This document shows, in pieces, positions 1 to 10,558 of a stretch of 64,000 nucleotides of DNA. Under the pieces are notes generated by a model. The model saw only the letters and a list, made by a program, of their open reading frames with translations. It ran no database searches and was not told where the DNA came from. Origin of the DNA: an uncultured Alphaproteobacteria bacterium (GTDB lineage Bacteria > Pseudomonadota > Alphaproteobacteria > HIMB59); NCBI GenBank assembly GCA_902611415.1, contig CACLZM010000001.1, positions 62,001-126,000 on the forward strand, read 5' to 3'. Within the stretch, counting starts at the first letter, position 1, and each line of letters begins with the position of its first letter. A program made the position numbers and the translations under genes.

Positions 1-591
1 ATAGAAACAGTCGAAAAAACTGAAATTTTATCAATTGGTAAGGGTCTCGAGCTCATTAAAGACTTAGGCGATGCAAATACTGTATCCAATCAATATGGCC
101 TTGATAAATTTATGGGTACCCACGGTATTGGCCATACAAGGATGGCTACCGAGTCTGATGTAGATATTAAATCCGCACACCCTTATTGGGCTTTCCCTTT
201 TGAGGATGTGTCAGTTGTTCATAATGGTCAATTGACTAATTATTGGGGCAATCGAAGAGTACTTGAAAGAAAAGGTTACAGGTTTAATTCAAATTGTGAC
301 TCAGAAATAATTGCTGTTTATATAGCTGATAAGATGGCTAACGGCATTGAACTAGAAAAAGCTATGCATGATAGCTTGGATGAACTCGATGGAGTTTTTA
401 CATATGTTGTAGCAACAAAGGATCAGTTGGGAATGGCAAAAGACCATATGGCCGCTAAGCCAATGGTAATCTACGAAAGTAAAGACATCGTAGCATGTGC
501 ATCAGAGGAAGTTGCAATTAGGAATATATTTCCTCACGAAATTAAAACATATGACCCTTATGAAGCGGAGGTAAAAGTATGGCAGGCATAA
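1..591 (+). CDS. glxB: Class II glutamine amidotransferase (GlxB / MgsA type), 5' truncated by window edge
   Basis: The reading frame is open from base 1, so the gene starts upstream; the ORF track begins only at an internal Met. The visible 196 residues match the class II (Ntn) glutamine amidotransferase fold seen in GlxB of rhizobia and MgsA of N-methylglutamate synthase: GTHGIGHTRMAT, then AHPYW, then VVHNGQLTNY. The catalytic N-terminal Cys must lie in the missing part. The family splits glutamine to release ammonia for a partner synthase. The next gene overlaps its stop by 13 nt, so the subunits are probably translationally coupled. Whether the product is glutamate or N-methylglutamate cannot be decided from this fragment; family assignment is firm, the symbol less so. 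Confidence 0.85.
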   Translation: METVEKTEILSIGKGLELIKDLGDANTVSNQYGLDKFMGTHGIGHTRMATESDVDIKSAHPYWAFPFEDVSVVHNGQLTNYWGNRRVLERKGYRFNSNCDSEIIAVYIADKMANGIELEKAMHDSLDELDGVFTYVVATKDQLGMAKDHMAAKPMVIYESKDIVACASEEVAIRNIFPHEIKTYDPYEAEVKVWQA

Positions 592-1415
592 CAAAAAGAA
601 CTACTGCTTTTGATGATGAAAATTTATCAGGTAGATCGCAAAAATTATATTTTGAAGTAACAGAAGAAGAAAATTATACCTACTACGGTAATCATGAAGT
701 TGATTTTAATAAAAGAACCTCCATTGATTGTGAAGGCATTGATGCTCATGAATTGAATCAAAAAATTAGAGATGCAATTCGAAAGGGATATGGGTCTATA
801 GTTATTAAAAACCCTGGTGCAAAACATTCACTTGGTGTGGGAATTCTAAATAAGTTAAACTTAATCTTTGAGGGTAGCTTAGGTTATTTTGGTATCGGTT
901 GTATCGATGGACCAACAGTGAGAGTTAATGGAAGAGTTGGTTGGTCATGTGCTGAAAATATGATGTCAGGAAAAGTTGTTGTTGAAAACAATGCAGGATC
1001 TTGTTTTGGAGCTGCTCTTAGAGGCGGTGACCTAATTGTTAAAGGCGATGCAGGTGCAAGAACTGGAATTGATATGAAAGGTGGCACTATTCTTATTGGC
1101 GGAAATGCTGGAGCTTACACTGGATTTATGATGCAAAGAGGAAGAATTATAGTTTGTGGTGATGTAAACGCAAACATGGGTGACTCAATGTATGATGGAA
1201 TCATTTTTGTAGGAGGAGAGCCTCATTCGCTTGGAACAGACTGTGTACCTGGTGAAATGAATGAACACGAGGTTAGATGGCTAGAACAAAAAATTAAAAA
1301 TGCTGAGATTGATTGCAAGGTCCCAGCTTCAAAATTTAAGAAATACGTTGCAGGAAGAATGCTCTGGAATTATGACAATCTAGAGCCAGCAGAAAAGAAA
1401 GGAATATTAGGCTAA
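579..1415 (+). CDS. glxC: Glutamate synthase GXGXG-domain subunit (GlxC / MgsB type)
   Basis: A 278-residue stand-alone version of the C-terminal GXGXG beta-helix domain of glutamate synthase. The repeated Gly-rich turns are visible in the middle of the protein (NAGSCFGAALRGGDLIVKG, then DAGARTGIDMKGG, then NAGAYTGFMMQRG). In the large GltB this domain is structural and supports the ammonia tunnel between amidotransferase and FMN site; here it is a separate subunit, as in the GlxBCD and MgsABC complexes. The start overlaps the end of glxB by 13 nt, and the stop shares one base with the ATG of glxD, which indicates one operon and stoichiometric expression. Confidence 0.88.
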   Translation: MAGITKRTTAFDDENLSGRSQKLYFEVTEEENYTYYGNHEVDFNKRTSIDCEGIDAHELNQKIRDAIRKGYGSIVIKNPGAKHSLGVGILNKLNLIFEGSLGYFGIGCIDGPTVRVNGRVGWSCAENMMSGKVVVENNAGSCFGAALRGGDLIVKGDAGARTGIDMKGGTILIGGNAGAYTGFMMQRGRIIVCGDVNANMGDSMYDGIIFVGGEPHSLGTDCVPGEMNEHEVRWLEQKIKNAEIDCKVPASKFKKYVAGRMLWNYDNLEPAEKKGILG

Positions 1416-2749
1416 TGGCAAAACGTAATACACAATTATTAGGACAAAACTCAATTTTTACCCCCGAGGTAATGGACGACATTCATATCAAATCACAACT
1501 TGGTCGTTATCGTATGCGTGGTATGGCGTTAATGAAAAAAATTCCTCACTGGGATGATTTAGTTTTTTTACCTGGCACATTAACAAGATTTGTTATTGAA
1601 GGTTACAGAGAGAAGTGTCTAACAGAAACAATAATAGGTCCTAGAGCAAAAAATCCTATCAAACTTGACATTCCTGTTTACATAACAAGTATGAGTTTTG
1701 GTGCTCTTTCTTATGAAGCAAAAACTGCTTTAGCTAGAGGTTCATCAATGGCTGGAAGTGCAACTTGCTCTGGAGAAGGGGGTATGATACCTGATGAGAG
1801 AAGGTACTCTCACAAATGGTATTATCAATGTATTCAATCCAGGTATGGCTTCAACCCACACCATGCTCAATTAGCTGACGCTATTGAGGTTTTCATTGGC
1901 CAAGGTCAAAAAGTTGGGATGGGTGGTCACTTAATGGGCCAGAAAGTTACTGACCAAGTAGCTGAGATGAGATCGTTACCTGCTGGTATTGATCAAAGAT
2001 CTCCTGCTAGACACCCAGACTGGATGGGACCTGACGATTTAGCTCTTAAGGTTCAAGAATTAAGAGAATTAACTGACAATCAAGTGCCAATTCAATTGAA
2101 ATTAGGCGCATCAAGAGTTTATGACGATGTCAGAATGGCAGCAAAATGTGACCCTGACTCTATATTTTTAGACTCTATGGAAGGTTCAACAGCAGCTGGT
2201 CCACACATCGCAGCAGCTAATACTGGTATTCCTGGTATTGGGGCAATTAGAGAAGCAAGAAGAGCTTTGGACGATGTTGGCAAAACTGGTGAAATATCAT
2301 TGGTATTTGCTGGAGGTATTAGAGATGGAGCTGATATGGCTAAAGCCTTAGCTCTTGGGGCAGATGCTATTGCTATCGGTACAGCTGGATTAGTAGCACT
2401 GAACTGTAACAAAGATATTCCAGAAGCTGATTATGAAAAAGAAATGGGAGTGGAGGCAGGTTACTGCTATCACTGTCATACTGGTAGATGTCCAGTTGGT
2501 GTGGCCACACAGGATCCTGTTCTTAGAAGTAGATTAGACCCAACAGAGGCAGCAGAAAGAGTTTATAATTTGCTTAGCACTATGACTCTTGAGTGCCAAA
2601 TGTTAGCAAGAGCATGTGGTAAGACAAACATTCACTCACTTGAGCCAGAAGATCTAGCTGCATTGACAATGGAGTCATCAGCAATGGCTAAAGTTCCATT
2701 AGCTGGTACAGATTTAACAGTAGGTGTAGATAACTACCACTCAATTTAG
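1415..2749 (+). CDS. glxD: FMN-binding glutamate synthase-like subunit (GlxD / MgsC type)
   Basis: A 444-residue protein corresponding to the FMN/3Fe-4S central synthase domain of GOGAT. The TIM-barrel signatures are visible (ITSMSFGALSYEAK, GEGGMIPDERR, IQLKLGASRVYDD, FAGGIRDGADMAKALALGADA), and the cluster-binding segment CYHCHTGRCPVGVATQ lies near residues 350-365. The family transfers ammonia to a 2-oxo acid or, in N-methylglutamate synthase, exchanges ammonia and methylamine on glutamate. It closes the glxBCD trio with one-base overlap. GlxD-type and MgsC-type enzymes cannot be told apart by eye; the nearby GS-like gene and Amt fit either role. Confidence 0.9.
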   Translation: MAKRNTQLLGQNSIFTPEVMDDIHIKSQLGRYRMRGMALMKKIPHWDDLVFLPGTLTRFVIEGYREKCLTETIIGPRAKNPIKLDIPVYITSMSFGALSYEAKTALARGSSMAGSATCSGEGGMIPDERRYSHKWYYQCIQSRYGFNPHHAQLADAIEVFIGQGQKVGMGGHLMGQKVTDQVAEMRSLPAGIDQRSPARHPDWMGPDDLALKVQELRELTDNQVPIQLKLGASRVYDDVRMAAKCDPDSIFLDSMEGSTAAGPHIAAANTGIPGIGAIREARRALDDVGKTGEISLVFAGGIRDGADMAKALALGADAIAIGTAGLVALNCNKDIPEADYEKEMGVEAGYCYHCHTGRCPVGVATQDPVLRSRLDPTEAAERVYNLLSTMTLECQMLARACGKTNIHSLEPEDLAALTMESSAMAKVPLAGTDLTVGVDNYHSI

Positions 2750-3844: not shown

Positions 3845-5152
3845 TTAACAATCTAGAGTTGTTTCTCTTTCCCAACTAGAAAGGTGTTTATTAAAAGTAC
3901 CCCAATCTTGATTTTTTAATTTTACATAGCTATTGACTAAATCATCACCAAAACCTGCTCTAATGATTTTTGATTTATCAAAATCACGTATTGCATCAAG
4001 AAGATTTAATGGCAATTTTTTTACTTTCCCAGCCTTGTGACCCTCTGTGTACATATTAATATCTAATCGTTTTCCAGGGTCTCTTTTATTATTTAAACCG
4101 TCCAAACCTAAAAGTAAAATACCTGCTTGAAGTAAATAAGGATTTGTAGCTCCATCCATTAATCTTAATTCAAATCTTCCTGCTCCAGGAACTCTTACCA
4201 TGTGTGTCCTGTTGTTACCTGCCCAAGTAATCGAGCTTGGCGACCATGTTGCACCTGATGTTGTTACACTACCGTTAATTCTTTTATAGGAGTTTACAGT
4301 TGGGTTAAAAACAGCAGCCATTTTGTCCGCACTTTCCATTATTCCACCTAAGAAATTGTAACCAGTTTTGGATAAACCTAATTCATCTTTTTTATCTAAA
4401 AACATATTTTTTTTGCCAGATTTATCCCAAATAGAAATATGACAATGACATCCATTACCTGTTAAATTTGTAAAAGGTTTGGGCATGAAAGTTGCCCTTA
4501 GTGAATGTTTTTCTGCAATAGATTTCACCATGAATTTAAAAAAAGCATGTCTATCTGCTGTTACTAAACAATCTGAAAAATCCCAGTTCATTTCAAATTG
4601 CCCATTCGCATCTTCATGATCGTTTTGGTAAGGTTTCCATCCTAGTGCAATCGTTGAGTCACATATCTCAGTGATAACATCATATCTTCTCATTAAAGCA
4701 GAGGAGTCATAGCATGGTTTTGCTTGCGTATCCCTTTGATCTGATAAAGATGTCCCGTCTTCATTGACCAAAAAAAATTCACATTCAACACCTGACTTCA
4801 TATAAAGATTTTTTTTAGCTGCTTCTTCTATTTGTCTTTTTAAGGCTATTCTGGGTGAAGCTTCTACTGGTTTACCATCCATATGCAAATCAGAGGCAAC
4901 CCAAGCTATTTCTTTATTCCAAGGAAGCTGGATAACACTATCACCATCAGGCATACCAAACATATCAGAGTCAGCTGGAGACATATCAAGCCATGTTGCA
5001 AAACCTGCAAACCCAGCTCCTTCAGATTGAATTTCATCTATAGCTGTTGCAGGTACAAGCTTTGATCTAAGCACCCCAAATAAATCTACAAAGCTTACAA
5101 AAAAATATTTGACACCATTTTTTTTAGCAAATTGGTGAAGGTTTGTTGCCAT
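3845..5152 (-). CDS. Glutamine-synthetase-family ligase, GlnT / gamma-glutamylmethylamide synthetase type
   Basis: A 435-residue glutamine synthetase homologue. Metal and substrate motifs are present: GVECEFFLV (about 121-129), NGQFEMNW (about 183-190), GNGCHCHIS (about 232-240), NSYKRI, GNNRTHMVRVP and GRFELRLMDGATNPYL. It lacks the NLYDLPPEE adenylylation loop of GlnA, having NMYTEGHKAGK instead, so GlnE control is not expected. Length and divergence fit GlnT of rhizobia and GmaS of methylamine users. Divergent transcription from amt and closeness to glxBCD match both the GlnT-Glx cluster and the indirect methylamine pathway. I leave the symbol blank because the substrate (ammonia or methylamine) is not readable from the sequence. 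Confidence 0.88.
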   Translation of the reverse strand: MATNLHQFAKKNGVKYFFVSFVDLFGVLRSKLVPATAIDEIQSEGAGFAGFATWLDMSPADSDMFGMPDGDSVIQLPWNKEIAWVASDLHMDGKPVEASPRIALKRQIEEAAKKNLYMKSGVECEFFLVNEDGTSLSDQRDTQAKPCYDSSALMRRYDVITEICDSTIALGWKPYQNDHEDANGQFEMNWDFSDCLVTADRHAFFKFMVKSIAEKHSLRATFMPKPFTNLTGNGCHCHISIWDKSGKKNMFLDKKDELGLSKTGYNFLGGIMESADKMAAVFNPTVNSYKRINGSVTTSGATWSPSSITWAGNNRTHMVRVPGAGRFELRLMDGATNPYLLQAGILLLGLDGLNNKRDPGKRLDINMYTEGHKAGKVKKLPLNLLDAIRDFDKSKIIRAGFGDDLVNSYVKLKNQDWGTFNKHLSSWERETTLDC

Positions 5153-5385: not shown

Positions 5386-6663
5386 ATGACACTTGAAGAA
5401 CTTGAATCGTACGTGATGATGCAAGCGAACGTCAGTATGGAAGCTTACTATTGGTGGTGTACTGCGTTAATGATTGCAATTCACGTAGGTTTCTTGATGT
5501 ATGAAGTAGGATCGTCTCGTTTTAAAAACGCGGTCTCTTCAGCTACAAAAAACCTTTTAGCGTTCGCGTTTATGATACCAACCTTCTGGTTATTTGGTTG
5601 GTATATTTATCTTGCATTTCCAGAGGGATTTACTCCAATAGCACTTGACGGTTATGGTACTCCATGGAATGTATCTATGGGGCCAATGTTAAGTGACCAA
5701 GCCACAGGTGTTTTCTGGGCGGCATTTACATTATTTGCTTGTACTACAGCTTCTATTTTTTCAGGATCTGTTCTTGAGAGAATAAGAATTAGCTCATTTA
5801 CTTTCTTGGCTGTTGTATTAGGGTCTGTAGCATGGATCTTAGCCGCTTCATGGGGCTGGCATCCTGATGGTTGGTTAGTAACACAATTCGGATATCATGA
5901 TGTTGGAGCAGCTGGTGTTGTTCACATGGTAGCAGGTTGGTTTGCTTTCGGAGTTGTCTTAAACTTAGGACCTAGAGTTGGTAAATACAATGCTGACGGT
6001 TCTGCGAATGAGATTGAGGGTCATGATCTTCGTTTCTCATTTATTGGTCTTTTAATGATTATTGTTGGTTTCTTCGGATTCCTCGGTGGTTGTTTAATCT
6101 GGGCAGGTGCAGAGTTTGGTGGATGGATAAACATTTACGGTGCTCCAGCAACATTATCATCTTTCGCTTTCAATACCCTCATGGGTCTAGGTGGAGGAAT
6201 GATTGGTGCATTCTGGATGAGTAAAGGTAACCCATTCTGGATGATGTCAGGTGGTCTTGCAGGTATATTCTCCTGTGCGTCTGGGCTTGATGTTTGGTAT
6301 CCAGGATTAGCCTTTGTTCTCGGTTTTGTTGGCGGTGTTATAATTATTCCTGCGAATAATTGGTTACACAGTGTTTTCAAGATTGATGATCCAGTAGGAG
6401 CTATATCTGTTCATGGAGTTGCCGGTATATGGGGTGTGATTGCAATGGGATTATTTGCATCAGGCTATCCAGCATCTGGTGATATTCCTCCAACAAGTTT
6501 TGGTGGACAGTTAGTTGGATGTATAGTCATGTTCTTAGTAGGATTTGTACCTGGTTATGGTTTATCATTCATTATGAAAATGATGAATTGGTTACGTGTA
6601 CCAGATGCAGTTCAAAAAGCAGGTATTGATAGCGCTGAGTTAAATCTCAAGGCATATCAGTAA
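5386..6663 (+). CDS. amt: Ammonium transporter (Amt/MEP family)
   Basis: A 425-residue polytopic membrane protein with about 11 hydrophobic segments. The twin pore histidines of the Amt family are visible in GVVHMVAGW and ISVHGVAGIWG. It carries NH4+ or methylammonium across the inner membrane. The start follows an excellent Shine-Dalgarno (TAAGGAGG). The gene is divergent from the GlnT/GmaS-type ligase across a 233-nt AT-rich promoter gap in which I see no clear sigma-54 site. No GlnK sits beside it, which is unusual for amt; the only PII gene in the window is glnB at 28.6 kb. A 57-codon membrane protein gene follows at once. Confidence 0.95.
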   Translation: MTLEELESYVMMQANVSMEAYYWWCTALMIAIHVGFLMYEVGSSRFKNAVSSATKNLLAFAFMIPTFWLFGWYIYLAFPEGFTPIALDGYGTPWNVSMGPMLSDQATGVFWAAFTLFACTTASIFSGSVLERIRISSFTFLAVVLGSVAWILAASWGWHPDGWLVTQFGYHDVGAAGVVHMVAGWFAFGVVLNLGPRVGKYNADGSANEIEGHDLRFSFIGLLMIIVGFFGFLGGCLIWAGAEFGGWINIYGAPATLSSFAFNTLMGLGGGMIGAFWMSKGNPFWMMSGGLAGIFSCASGLDVWYPGLAFVLGFVGGVIIIPANNWLHSVFKIDDPVGAISVHGVAGIWGVIAMGLFASGYPASGDIPPTSFGGQLVGCIVMFLVGFVPGYGLSFIMKMMNWLRVPDAVQKAGIDSAELNLKAYQ

Positions 6664-6683: not shown

Positions 6684-6857
6684 ATGAATACATTTCCAGG
6701 ACCTGAAAATAGTTGGGAAGGTGTGGACGCTTATTTCACATATGCCAACAGTGAAGGTGCACTGATATTTTGGACCCTTTTTGTTATTGCTCTATGCGTG
6801 CTAGTCACTATGGCAACAGCAAGACACGAGTCTGATACTGCAAAAAAAACAAAATAA
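6684..6857 (+). CDS. Small single-span membrane protein downstream of amt
   Basis: This ORF is too short for the track: ATG after GGAAGGAGAA (strong SD), 57 codons, TAA, 20 nt downstream of amt and before a GC-rich terminator. The protein is acidic/aromatic at the N-terminus (NTFPGPENSWEGVDAYF), has one transmembrane helix (GALIFWTLFVIALCVLVTMA), and ends in a basic C-terminal tail. The strong RBS and tight linkage indicate a real, co-expressed gene. It may be a small partner of Amt, in the manner of other small transporter-binding membrane proteins; this is inference. Confidence 0.75.
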   Translation: MNTFPGPENSWEGVDAYFTYANSEGALIFWTLFVIALCVLVTMATARHESDTAKKTK

Positions 6858-6869
6858 TGTATAATTTAG

Positions 6870-7080: not shown

Positions 7081-7821
7081 TTGAATTTACTAATTATCAG
7101 TGGCATGGATAAAAACCACGATAATGAACATGTTAAATCAAATTCTTCTTATCAATATAGTTTTTTTGAAGAAATTATTAAAAAGCAAAATCCCCTCTCA
7201 AATATCTCGGTTTATAAACCTTACATTGAGGATGTAAATAAATTTAGTTTTGAAGATTACGATGCCTTTTTATGGACCGGAGGTCTTGGTAATATTTATG
7301 ATGACAATGATCACAATAAAAATCAGTTGAAGATATTTGATAGAATAGCAACTCTAGAAAGACCAATTTGGGGAAGTTGTTGGGGTCTTCAAGTGGCTGT
7401 AACAGCATTTGGAGGAAAAATATCAAGTTCTATGAGTCCAGAGTTTGGATATTCTGAAAAAATAAAAATTATAAAAAATCATTTTGTTTATAAAAATAAA
7501 AAAAATTTATTTACTGCCCCTGGTCATCATTACGATAGTTTAGAAACTCTTCCCAAGGACTTTGACATAATTTCTGAGAATAATCATTCTATTCAATCTA
7601 TATGTCATAAAAAACAAAACATATTTTGTACTCAATATCATCCAGAACTACCATACAACTATATCGGTAAATTAATGAGTTATTGGAAAAGAAATTATTT
7701 AAAGATTATGAGTGAAAATGAATTTGAAGCATTATTAAATAAATTACAAAGTTTTGAAAATGAAGATCAATTTAACAGAGAACTTGAATTAATGAATTGG
7801 TTAGAAAATATTAAATTGTGA
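7081..7821 (+). CDS. Class I glutamine amidotransferase domain protein
   Basis: A 246-residue stand-alone class I GATase of the GuaA-N-terminal kind. The oxyanion strand FLWTGGLGNIYDD, the nucleophile elbow GSCWGLQV (Cys about 100) and the His-Glu pair in TQYHPE (about residues 186-190) form a complete triad. The start is TTG. It could hydrolyse glutamine or another gamma-glutamyl amide, like PuuD-type hydrolases of gamma-glutamyl-amine pathways. The next plus-strand gene is a glutamine-synthetase-like ligase, so a synthetase/hydrolase pair acting on gamma-glutamyl compounds is plausible. No synthase partner domain is fused to it. Confidence 0.85.
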   Translation: MNLLIISGMDKNHDNEHVKSNSSYQYSFFEEIIKKQNPLSNISVYKPYIEDVNKFSFEDYDAFLWTGGLGNIYDDNDHNKNQLKIFDRIATLERPIWGSCWGLQVAVTAFGGKISSSMSPEFGYSEKIKIIKNHFVYKNKKNLFTAPGHHYDSLETLPKDFDIISENNHSIQSICHKKQNIFCTQYHPELPYNYIGKLMSYWKRNYLKIMSENEFEALLNKLQSFENEDQFNRELELMNWLENIKL

Positions 7822-8067
7822 TTATTTTTTAGTAGCGATCATAATAAGTGATAAAAAAATTACTGCTAAAAGACCACAAAAAACTGCTGCAAAAAAAATA
7901 GTGGATATAATGAACATAAATACTTTTATATCTGTAATCTTACTAAAAAAAAGTGGTGTCTGTAAAAACTGATCAACAGTGAGTATAAAAGTTAAAACAA
8001 AAAATCCCATCATAAAGCCTCTTTTGTAAAATTTAATCCATGATTTTTTAAAGTAATCAATATTCAT
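7822..8067 (-). CDS. Small hypothetical membrane protein
   Basis: An 81-residue protein starting at the ATG of MNIDYFKK; the track starts at an upstream TTG, giving 95 residues. A basic N-terminal segment (KKSWIKFYKRG) precedes two hydrophobic helices (MMGFFVLTFILTV and FMFIISTIFFAAVFCGLLAVIFLSL). It lies alone on the minus strand, abutting the stop of the GATase gene and facing away from the GS-like gene. I do not recognise a family; membrane location is clear, function unknown. Confidence 0.55.
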   Translation of the reverse strand: MNIDYFKKSWIKFYKRGFMMGFFVLTFILTVDQFLQTPLFFSKITDIKVFMFIISTIFFAAVFCGLLAVIFLSLIMIATKK

Positions 8068-8143
8068 AATTTGAAGTAGTAATTTTATATTATGGTCATA
8101 TAATTTCAATTCGATAAGATTTAAATTTTAGGAGGAGACTAAC

Positions 8144-9541
8144 TTGGGTCAATATTTTGAAAATTTTAAAGACGCCTTACCTGATGTAAAAAAAGTTAGA
8201 AAAATAAAAAAGGATTTAGAAAAAAAAGGCGTAAAATACATTTATTCTAATTGGATTGATTTTCTGGGTAGTCCAAAAACTAAGCCTATGCCAATATCTG
8301 ATTTTGAGGATCTTTGTATGGGTAAAGGCCCTCAATTTGCTGTTCATTCTGTTTCCTTTGTTCCAGAATTAACTCCAGCAGATAATGATCAAATCCCTGT
8401 GCCAGATTTGGATAGTCTTGTTATATGTCCATGGGATAAAACATGTGCATGGGTTTTTGCAGATTTATATTGGAATAACAAACCTTACGATGTTTGCCCA
8501 AGAATGACGTTAAAAAAACAAATAAAGGAAAGCGCTAAATCTGACTTGAAATTTTTTGTTGGTATCGAACCTGAATTTTTTTTAATGAAGTGGGAGGGCG
8601 ACAAACCAGTTAAAGCAATTGACAGAGATCCCATAAATTTAAGAAGACAAGCTTTTGGGTATGACTCAGAATACTCAATAGATGGAATGCATTTTTTAAA
8701 AGAAATAATAGATATTTTAAATAATGATTTGAAATGGGATCTCCATGACGTCGTTGCTGAGGGTGCATATGGCCAGTATGAATTAGATTTCGGTTACACA
8801 GATATTTTAGGGATGGCTGATAGATTTGTATTTTTAAGAGTATTACTCAAGGAAGTTGCAAAAAAATATGGATATTTTGTATCATTTATGCCAAAGACAA
8901 CTATTAGTGATTGGAGAGCTGGTGCTCACATCAATCATAGTGTGGCATCAATTAAAAAGAAAAATAATAATATTTATAAGAATGGGAATAATTTCTCTGA
9001 TAAAGCCTACAATGCTGTCGCTGGTATTTTAAAACATGGAGCAGCGATTACAGCTCTAGCCTGCCCAACTGTTAACTCATATAACGGATTTGTTCCTACA
9101 GTTGAGGGCCTTGATGGTGGCCGTCATACATGGGCTCCTACACACATGACATACGGCAGTAACAATAGATCAGCTATGATAAGACTACCACAAAATAGAT
9201 ATTGTATAGAAAATAGGGCATCTGATTTAACTCAAAATCCTTATTTAACTTTTTCTTTATTAGCCGCAGCTGTTACAGAGGGTATCGACAAAAAAATGAA
9301 GCCCCCAAAACCAACTAATAAAAGTCTTTATGATTTGACCGAGAAAGAAAAAAAAGAGGTTACTACTCTGCCAAGAAATTTATTAGAGGCAGTAGACGCT
9401 TTTGCTGCTGATAAATTAACTAGAAAAGTTTTTTCTGAGGCTATGATAAACAATTTTATTGGATATAAATATGATGAGTGGTCTAGATATCATACAACTA
9501 CAACTGATTGGGAAATCAAAGAATATCTAAAGTTATTTTAA
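8144..9541 (+). CDS. Second glutamine-synthetase-like gamma-glutamyl ligase
   Basis: A 465-residue GS-family protein starting with TTG behind a very strong RBS (GGAGGAG). Metal and ATP-site motifs are kept: GIEPEFFLM (about 140-148), YGQYELDFGY, GAHINHS, NSYNGF, GSNNRSAMIRLP. The usual GSS segment near residue 50 of GlnA is replaced by HSVSF, so the amine pocket differs from that of true GlnA. The C-terminal part has LYDLTEKE (about 393-400), resembling the adenylylation loop. It abuts the next gene with zero spacing. Likely an amine or amide gamma-glutamylating enzyme; the substrate is unknown. Confidence 0.82.
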   Translation: MGQYFENFKDALPDVKKVRKIKKDLEKKGVKYIYSNWIDFLGSPKTKPMPISDFEDLCMGKGPQFAVHSVSFVPELTPADNDQIPVPDLDSLVICPWDKTCAWVFADLYWNNKPYDVCPRMTLKKQIKESAKSDLKFFVGIEPEFFLMKWEGDKPVKAIDRDPINLRRQAFGYDSEYSIDGMHFLKEIIDILNNDLKWDLHDVVAEGAYGQYELDFGYTDILGMADRFVFLRVLLKEVAKKYGYFVSFMPKTTISDWRAGAHINHSVASIKKKNNNIYKNGNNFSDKAYNAVAGILKHGAAITALACPTVNSYNGFVPTVEGLDGGRHTWAPTHMTYGSNNRSAMIRLPQNRYCIENRASDLTQNPYLTFSLLAAAVTEGIDKKMKPPKPTNKSLYDLTEKEKKEVTTLPRNLLEAVDAFAADKLTRKVFSEAMINNFIGYKYDEWSRYHTTTTDWEIKEYLKLF

Positions 9542-10558
9542 TTGATTAGTAAAGAGGAACTACATAAATACCAATTAAATAATTTCAAATTAAAATCAGG
9601 CGACATAATAGATTTACAATTAAATTATTTAGCATTTGGGAAACTAAATTCTGACAAATCAAATGTAATTTTATTTCCTACTAGGTATGCTGGTACGCAT
9701 CTTGAGCAAGGATATCTGATTGGTAATAATTTTCCCATAGACCCAGATAAATATTTCATCATTATTCCAAACATGTTTTGTAATGGTGTTTCCTCCTCAC
9801 CAAGTAATACAGAAAAACCCTTTAATGGACCTAATTTTCCCTTAATTACAATATATGATAATGTGCAAGCACAATACACACTTCTAAAAGAAAAATTTAA
9901 CATAGAAAAAATTAAATTAGTTATAGGTTGGTCAATGGGAGGACAACAAGCATTTGAGTGGGCGTCATATTTTCCAGACATGGTAGAAAATATGATATCT
10001 ATGTGTGGTCATGCTAAAACCACAGAGCATACATATGTATTTTTAGAGGGCGTATATGCTGCTTTGACTTCAGATCCAAACTGGAATTCTGGAAATTATG
10101 AAAAACAACCTCAAAATGGAAAAACAACAATGGCAAGAGTATGGGCTGGATGGGCGCATGGGCAAGACTGGTTTAGGGAAAAAAAATATATCGATGATGG
10201 TTACAAAGATGCAAAAGAAGTTTTGGATAAACTTTGGAATAGAATTTATTATCGTAAGGATGCAAATGATTTATTAGCGATGATAAGAACTTGGCAAGAG
10301 CACGACATTAGCAACAATAATAAATTTAATAATCAATTTGATAAAGCTCTTAACTCTATTACTGCGCGATGTATTTTAATGCCAGGTAAAAATGATTTAT
10401 ACTTCCCCCCAGAGGATAATGAAATTGAAATAAAAAATATTAAAAATGGTGAATTACGTATCATTCCTTCAAGCTACGGTCACTATGCTGGAGCAGGTAA
10501 GTCCAAAGAAGATTTAAATTTTGTTAATGATGCTATAAAGGATATATTGATTACTTAA
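9542..10558 (+). CDS. MetX-like alpha/beta-hydrolase (homoserine O-acetyltransferase family)
   Basis: A 338-residue alpha/beta-fold protein with the family triad: nucleophile GWSMGGQQAFEW (Ser about 131), Asp in MPGKNDLYFPPED, His in SSYGHYAGAG. The N-terminal half (LAFGKLN...NVILFPT) is typical of the homoserine O-acetyltransferase superfamily. The start is a TTG immediately after the stop of the GS-like gene, so translation is coupled. True MetX function (acetyl-CoA dependent acylation of homoserine) is possible, but linkage to a gamma-glutamyl ligase and a GATase suggests a hydrolase or acyltransferase acting in that pathway. It overlaps the 3' end of convergent tyrS by 8 nt. Confidence 0.82.
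   Translation: MISKEELHKYQLNNFKLKSGDIIDLQLNYLAFGKLNSDKSNVILFPTRYAGTHLEQGYLIGNNFPIDPDKYFIIIPNMFCNGVSSSPSNTEKPFNGPNFPLITIYDNVQAQYTLLKEKFNIEKIKLVIGWSMGGQQAFEWASYFPDMVENMISMCGHAKTTEHTYVFLEGVYAALTSDPNWNSGNYEKQPQNGKTTMARVWAGWAHGQDWFREKKYIDDGYKDAKEVLDKLWNRIYYRKDANDLLAMIRTWQEHDISNNNKFNNQFDKALNSITARCILMPGKNDLYFPPEDNEIEIKNIKNGELRIIPSSYGHYAGAGKSKEDLNFVNDAIKDILIT

Follow-up and report, generated by a model that had tools for sequence, protein, structure and literature searches.

We analysed a stretch of 64,000 nucleotides (hereafter the window; contig CACLZM010000001.1, positions 62,001 to 126,000) from the 1.24 Mb, 81% complete genome of an uncultured alphaproteobacterium of the HIMB59 lineage, and in particular three genes on its plus strand. 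The first, at 7081..7821, encodes a stand-alone protein of the class I glutamine amidotransferase type (GATase), 246 amino acids (aa) long with a TTG start (PF00117, 69 bits; PF07722, Peptidase_C26, 25 bits). The second, at 8144..9541, encodes a predicted ATP-dependent ligase of 465 aa that resembles glutamine synthetase (GS; PF00120, 277 bits) and is called GSx here. The third, at 9542..10558, encodes an alpha/beta hydrolase of 338 aa of the MekB/CgHle esterase type (NF005757/PRK07581, 429 bits at a cut-off of 332). The initial annotation had read these genes as a trio belonging to a possibly undescribed gamma-glutamyl pathway, framed on the PuuA-to-PuuD route, with zero spacing between ligase and hydrolase.

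The layout is as that annotation had it. All three open reading frames (ORFs) are intact, a clear ribosome-binding site, AGGAGGAG, precedes the start of GSx, and the hydrolase begins at the base right after the GSx stop codon; the same zero gap is found in other genomes of the genus, for example G030 and G013. The trio is no plain three-gene operon, however, because a conserved ORF on the minus strand (7822..8109), convergent with GATase, sits between GATase and GSx. With this ORF intervening, GSx and the hydrolase form a tight unit and GATase is probably transcribed apart from them. The ORF encodes a small membrane protein of about 82-95 aa that clusters across loci and adjoins the GSx-hydrolase pair in both HIMB59 families. 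In tblastn searches its identity was 49-65% at five loci (L073, L076, L078, L082, L083), and there was no match at L087, which has no GSx, or at L074, which has it.

Distribution of the GSx-hydrolase pair

Conservation was followed in 52 genomes of the same genus and in 98 genomes of the sister family, the second one in HIMB59; genome completeness was about 50-99%, so that absence from a single genome is weak evidence. Within the genus, 39 of the 52 genomes carry both GSx and the hydrolase, 12 carry neither, and one has the hydrolase alone. The hydrolase is thus present in 39/39 GSx genomes (P = 6e-11) and GATase in 36/39 (P = 3e-8), which far exceeds chance; as the genomes are related, these P values are descriptive only. 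In the three GSx genomes without GATase, GSx lies on a contig end or a fragment. Failure of the genes to co-occur in relatives, which the initial annotation had named as an outcome that would speak against it, was not seen in these 52 genomes.

The genomes without a full set are also informative. G037 has none of the three genes and shows gmaS, a different Amt gene (45%) and tyrS in succession, a layout consistent with gain and loss of the trio as a block. G009 has no GSx, and its GATase is interrupted by a stop codon. At L086 (G032:C2) the hydrolase is found without GSx, and other genes stand where GSx and the methylamine locus would be. At L085 (G038:C3:52000-71000), in a metagenome-assembled genome (MAG), in-frame stops and frameshifts run throughout GATase, GSx, hydrolase, gmaS and tyrS, and the damage reflects either decay or poor assembly.

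In the sister family GSx was found in 11 of the 98 genomes, 10 of them with the hydrolase and all 11 with an orthologue of a Rieske oxygenase, RieskeA. The usual order here is RieskeA, glyoxalase-fold gene, EutQ-like cupin, GSx, hydrolase and small membrane protein.

A pattern scan of bacterial genomes gave GSx relatives in SAR324, SUP05/Thioglobus, other Gammaproteobacteria, an Acidobacteria-labelled MAG and Kiloniellaceae. Neighbours within about 10 kb around GSx were counted at 47 loci outside HIMB59, two of them on Rhodobacteraceae plasmids; as many of these loci run into a contig end, the counts are lower bounds. The hydrolase was present at at least 39 loci, RieskeA at at least 36, an AsnC-type regulator at at least 29, a glyoxalase-fold gene at at least 28, an EutQ-like cupin at at least 25, RieskeB and a D-2-hydroxyacid dehydrogenase at at least 23 each, gamma-glutamylmethylamide synthetase (GmaS) at at least 13, MgsC at at least 12 and glycerate kinase at at least 10. 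No GATase orthologue was found at any of the 47 loci; this gene is confined to the genus of the window (f1). The trio as a universal unit is therefore rejected, and what survives of it is GATase as a companion within the genus and, as the lasting unit, the pair of GSx and alpha/beta hydrolase. The Rieske oxygenase, the recurrent partner elsewhere, was not visible in the stretch on which the initial annotation was based.

The distribution of GSx is sparse and scattered: among 385 evenly sampled alphaproteobacterial genomes, only 9 carry it (E <= 1e-140). In SUP05/Thioglobus a single co-directional run (such as L166) holds RieskeA, glyoxalase, cupin, regulator, GSx, MgsA, MgsB, MgsC, GmaS and hydrolase, and a Leisingera thetidis plasmid carries regulator, Rieske, gloA, cupin, GSx, an ABC transporter and hydrolase. 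At L136 a PhyH oxygenase lies near GSx, and a GATase 26% like that of the window is found two genes off. L123 and L129 have near GSx a gene of the diiron phenol/alkene-hydroxylase type, an alternative oxygenase partner, together with a protein of three RidA domains.

Relatives and active-site residues

GSx scores 357 bits against the GmaS model TIGR03105, under its cut-off of 469.6, and 182 bits against NF045547 (gamma-glutamylputrescine synthetase, PuuA), which has a cut-off of 650. Its closest solved relatives are GmaS-type enzymes and archaeal or Gram-positive GlnA, at about 180-220 bits. We compared residues between 87 GSx orthologues and 86 GmaS/GSIII-type proteins. The six metal ligands and the phosphate-site Arg are invariant in 87/87 GSx, so GSx should remain able to activate an acid with ATP, as judged from the roles of the metal ligands and of the Arg stabilising the phosphorylated acid in the GmaS structure (PMC7948447).

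In the same structure (RhGmaS numbering) Arg288 binds the glutamate analogue and Asp177 deprotonates methylamine (PMC7948447). At the position of Arg288, the Arg of the NSYKR motif, 86/86 GmaS/GSIII-type proteins have Arg and 87/87 GSx have Gly315. A new Arg, Arg258, is found in 87/87 GSx where GmaS/GSIII-type proteins have Gly or Ala; it aligns with the glutamate-contacting Gly231 of GmaS. The methylamine-deprotonating Asp, kept in 85/86 GmaS/GSIII-type proteins, is replaced by Val204 in 87/87 GSx. The Arg exchange and the change from Asp to Val indicate that both the acid and the amine pockets of GSx are remodelled. GSx and GmaS (7cql, 9qur) are thus alike in fold family, length, metal ligands, phosphate-site Arg and gmaS/mgs neighbours, whereas GSx differs in these three pocket positions, in a longer loop and in forming a separate clade on a long stem. 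GSx as a second GmaS was rejected on its residues and TIGR03105 score, and GSx as PuuA on 182 versus 650 bits and the pocket residues. The PuuA-to-PuuD framing consequently falls, and glutamate as the acyl donor of GSx, with Gly at the glutamate-binding Arg, is unproven.

The GSx clade has 100/100 support. In its nearest outgroup, a protein of Rhodococcus opacus, both the Arg and the Gly are the standard ones. GSx of the window's genus is not sister to that of the second HIMB59 family; the latter clusters with GSx from the Rhodobacteraceae plasmids. With the deep forks inside the clade only partly settled, this topology suggests separate acquisition. The AlphaFold model of GSx is poor (mean pLDDT 54, shallow alignment). 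The outgroup gene, a GSx sister with the standard glutamate site, lies on a R. opacus plasmid (L171:8631-13540) with a gamma-glutamyl hydrolase-type GATase, a DUF1116 protein and a cytosine permease, a set that possibly encodes another undescribed gamma-glutamyl route.

The hydrolase has a triad, Ser131-Asp285-His314, invariant among the orthologues compared, and a good AlphaFold model (pLDDT 88), whose best fold matches are MekB (TM 0.93) and CgHle (0.92), with homoserine acetyltransferases at about 0.79-0.86. In sequence it scores 258 bits to the MekB chain 5e4y and 255 bits to CgHle, at about 31-34% identity, which is the difference from these enzymes. Triad, sequence and predicted fold together place it in the MekB/CgHle esterase subfamily, and acetyl-ester hydrolysis is its predicted activity only. 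The "acyltransferase/hydrolase" of the initial annotation is then an alpha/beta hydrolase, and the acyltransferase half of that label is not supported, since esterases are nearest. The ester substrate of MekB arises from a Baeyer-Villiger step, whereas no Baeyer-Villiger gene was seen here.

Could the hydrolase be a MetX that makes O-acetylhomoserine beside incidental neighbours? There is a distant likeness, 152 bits to TIGR01392, which is far under the cut-off of 500; elsewhere (G000:C4) the genome carries a canonical metX with metW after it, so the hydrolase gene is not the sole homoserine acetyltransferase, the other outcome that had been named as damaging; and the closest sequences and solved folds are esterases. 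We rejected the MetX role, which is highly improbable and refuted as far as sequence allows. Homologues of the hydrolase (47-48%) were noted on Roseibium and Aminobacter plasmids (L170 and L172) by urea/amide-type ABC transporters and an ANTAR regulator, in Roseibium also near an amidase and a cytosine permease. No GSx was present in the plasmid stretches viewed, and these neighbours fixed no substrate.

In GATase, Cys100, His187 and Glu189 are invariant across four diverse orthologues. A PuuD-like GATase would carry such a Cys-His-Glu triad; the profile search matched generic families and gave no PuuD-specific match. This protein evolves much faster than GSx (48-55% identity where GSx has 83-93%). 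The ligase plus class I GATase logic does recall PuuA and PuuD; the difference is that here no oxidase or aldehyde dehydrogenase lies between the genes and that GSx is far under the PuuA cut-off.

The methylamine neighbourhood

The trio lies directly downstream of a methylated-amine locus, with gmaS, amt and mgs-like genes adjoining, and is placed at the edge of this methylamine/N-methylglutamate locus. The upstream neighbour encodes an Amt-family transporter (5386..6663, plus strand; PF00909, 210 bits). GmaS itself (435 aa; 3845..5152, minus strand) matches RhGmaS, 7cql, over the full length at 613 bits and 9qur at 337 bits, and the tree places it with 7cql, the solved Rhodovulum GmaS. The mgsABC-like genes of an N-methylglutamate synthase-type locus occupy 1..2749 on the plus strand (PF13522, PF01493, PF01645): the GATase_6 end of an MgsA-like protein, a GXGXG MgsB-like protein and a Glu_synthase MgsC-like protein.

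Beyond the upstream edge of the window, read in L009, there are more mgs-like genes, a gene for a sarcosine-oxidase-like flavoprotein and a second GS-like gene. The latter (L009:12161-13630) lies directly 5′ of the mgsA-like genes and encodes an unusual GS-like protein of 489 aa, remote from GmaS in the tree (branch 4.35). Two mgsB/mgsC-like sets, L009:7833-9835 and window positions 579-2749, flank one locus, and between them lie the flavoprotein gene and, as read from sequence, an IclR-like regulator. Directly after amt, a 57-aa membrane protein (6684-6858, plus strand) begins MNTFPGPENSWEG; it is 58-82% conserved, including in the sister family and in the GSx-free genome at L087, and is a candidate Amt partner peptide.

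A proposed route for a marine nitrogen compound

The GSx-hydrolase pair recurs in other marine bacteria, mostly beside oxygenases, and for this reason it probably belongs to an uncharacterised route of nitrogen-compound breakdown. We propose that GSx and the MekB-type hydrolase supply the ligase and hydrolase at the core of a pathway that breaks down a marine metabolite which contains nitrogen and is probably N-methylated, a reading to which we give a probability of about 0.45. No published description of this gene set was found in the open literature searched. The pathway may thus be undescribed, as had been supposed, with the difference that its defining set is ligase, hydrolase and oxygenase and not the trio.

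What the sequences show directly is the pairing with its conservation, the linkage to oxygenase and methylamine genes, the intactness of the catalytic residues and the exchanged Arg; the substrate, the order of steps and the role of GATase we infer as follows. GSx would spend ATP to turn a carboxylic acid into an acyl-phosphate and join the acid to an amine. The substrate or its conjugate would be oxidised, in most lineages, by an oxygenase that is usually of the Rieske and sometimes of the diiron or PhyH type, and the hydrolase would cut an ester or amide formed en route. The freed methylamine or ammonium would be taken up by the co-encoded GmaS and N-methylglutamate enzymes. The HIMB59 genus would have a reduced form in which the oxygenase is missing and GATase has been added; by analogy with AtdA2, which acts on gamma-glutamylanilide, GATase would most likely hydrolyse the amide made by GSx. 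More tentatively, GSx may no longer take glutamate as its acid. The move of the Arg (lost to Gly at 315, gained in place of Gly at 258) would turn the acyl pocket towards a different carboxylate and create a new acid-amine ligase chemistry which, with the MekB-type hydrolase and an oxygenase, may degrade an abundant marine nitrogen compound.

Several observations weigh against the proposed route. Most marine GSx loci have no Mgs or GmaS gene inside the 10 kb. In a Spongiihabitans MAG (L158:6393-9888) GSx and hydrolase come after genes for a GTP-cyclohydrolase-II-like protein and a GhrA-like dehydrogenase, and in strain M382 agmatinase and amidinotransferase are found in the GSx context. A search of the window's genome for a RieskeA-type protein gave no match, and hence the version in this genus must run without RieskeA or on another substrate. 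As GSx of this genus branches apart from that of the Rieske-bearing sister family, its function may also differ between the two.

A true gamma-glutamyl-amine pathway is a possible, if doubtful, alternative. Here GSx would join L-glutamate to an amine in a rearranged pocket, with Arg258 standing in for the lost Arg, the hydrolase would act on the tagged intermediate, and GATase would hydrolyse the gamma-glutamyl amide. To our knowledge, all characterised amine ligases of the GS family use glutamate. Within the genus GATase and GSx come and go together, Arg258 is invariant in just those proteins that have lost the other Arg, and in R. opacus a GATase of the gamma-glutamyl hydrolase type comes after the sister gene, whose product has the standard Arg. 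Against it stands the Gly that in every GSx replaces the Arg binding the glutamate analogue in GmaS. The GATase two genes from GSx at L136 can be cited for this alternative, but its likeness to that of the window is low, other loci have no orthologue, and the profiles matched by GATase are generic. It is also conceivable, and rather unlikely, that GSx and hydrolase are a true pair and that GATase is a separately transcribed gene with no tie to them, serving for example the amt or mgs genes. The intervening minus-strand ORF, the faster evolution of GATase, the other lineages, all of which have GSx without it, and the stop-bearing GATase of G009 agree with such independence, while the joint presence and absence across the 52 genomes and the amt-tyrS interval of G037, empty of all three genes, argue against it.

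Among known systems, those for aniline and 1-naphthylamine (AtdA1-A5, NpaA1-A5) combine a GS-like ligase, a GATase-like hydrolase and a Rieske oxygenase acting on the tagged amine (PMC11335346). This is the same cast as found when GSx loci are summed. However, the full cast was present at no GSx locus read: the window's genome is without RieskeA, other lineages have Rieske genes without a GATase orthologue, and the MekB-type hydrolase, cupin and glyoxalase-fold genes are extra at GSx loci. GSx scores 119 bits to the NpaA1 chain 8wwu. Work on homarine catabolism, cited in PMC13390433, reportedly connects a marine N-methylated pyridine with N-methylglutamate enzymes. If the homarine hom operon contains the genes discussed here, the pathway is already described, and this is the main threat to novelty. 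This operon, from Ferrer-Gonzalez et al. 2026, reportedly has five structural genes and a regulator; this would fit, and we treat it as a lead and not as a test.

GS-like ligases serve as markers for marine methylamine and polyamine use, and automated annotation labels GSx merely "glutamine synthetase family protein". GSx forms a clade of its own, scattered widely, and its glutamate site is altered. The linkage of GSx to Rieske oxygenase and N-methylglutamate genes in lineages such as SAR324, SUP05/Thioglobus and HIMB59 suggests that they share a route for some dissolved organic nitrogen compound, whose identity can be tested in a culturable carrier of GSx.

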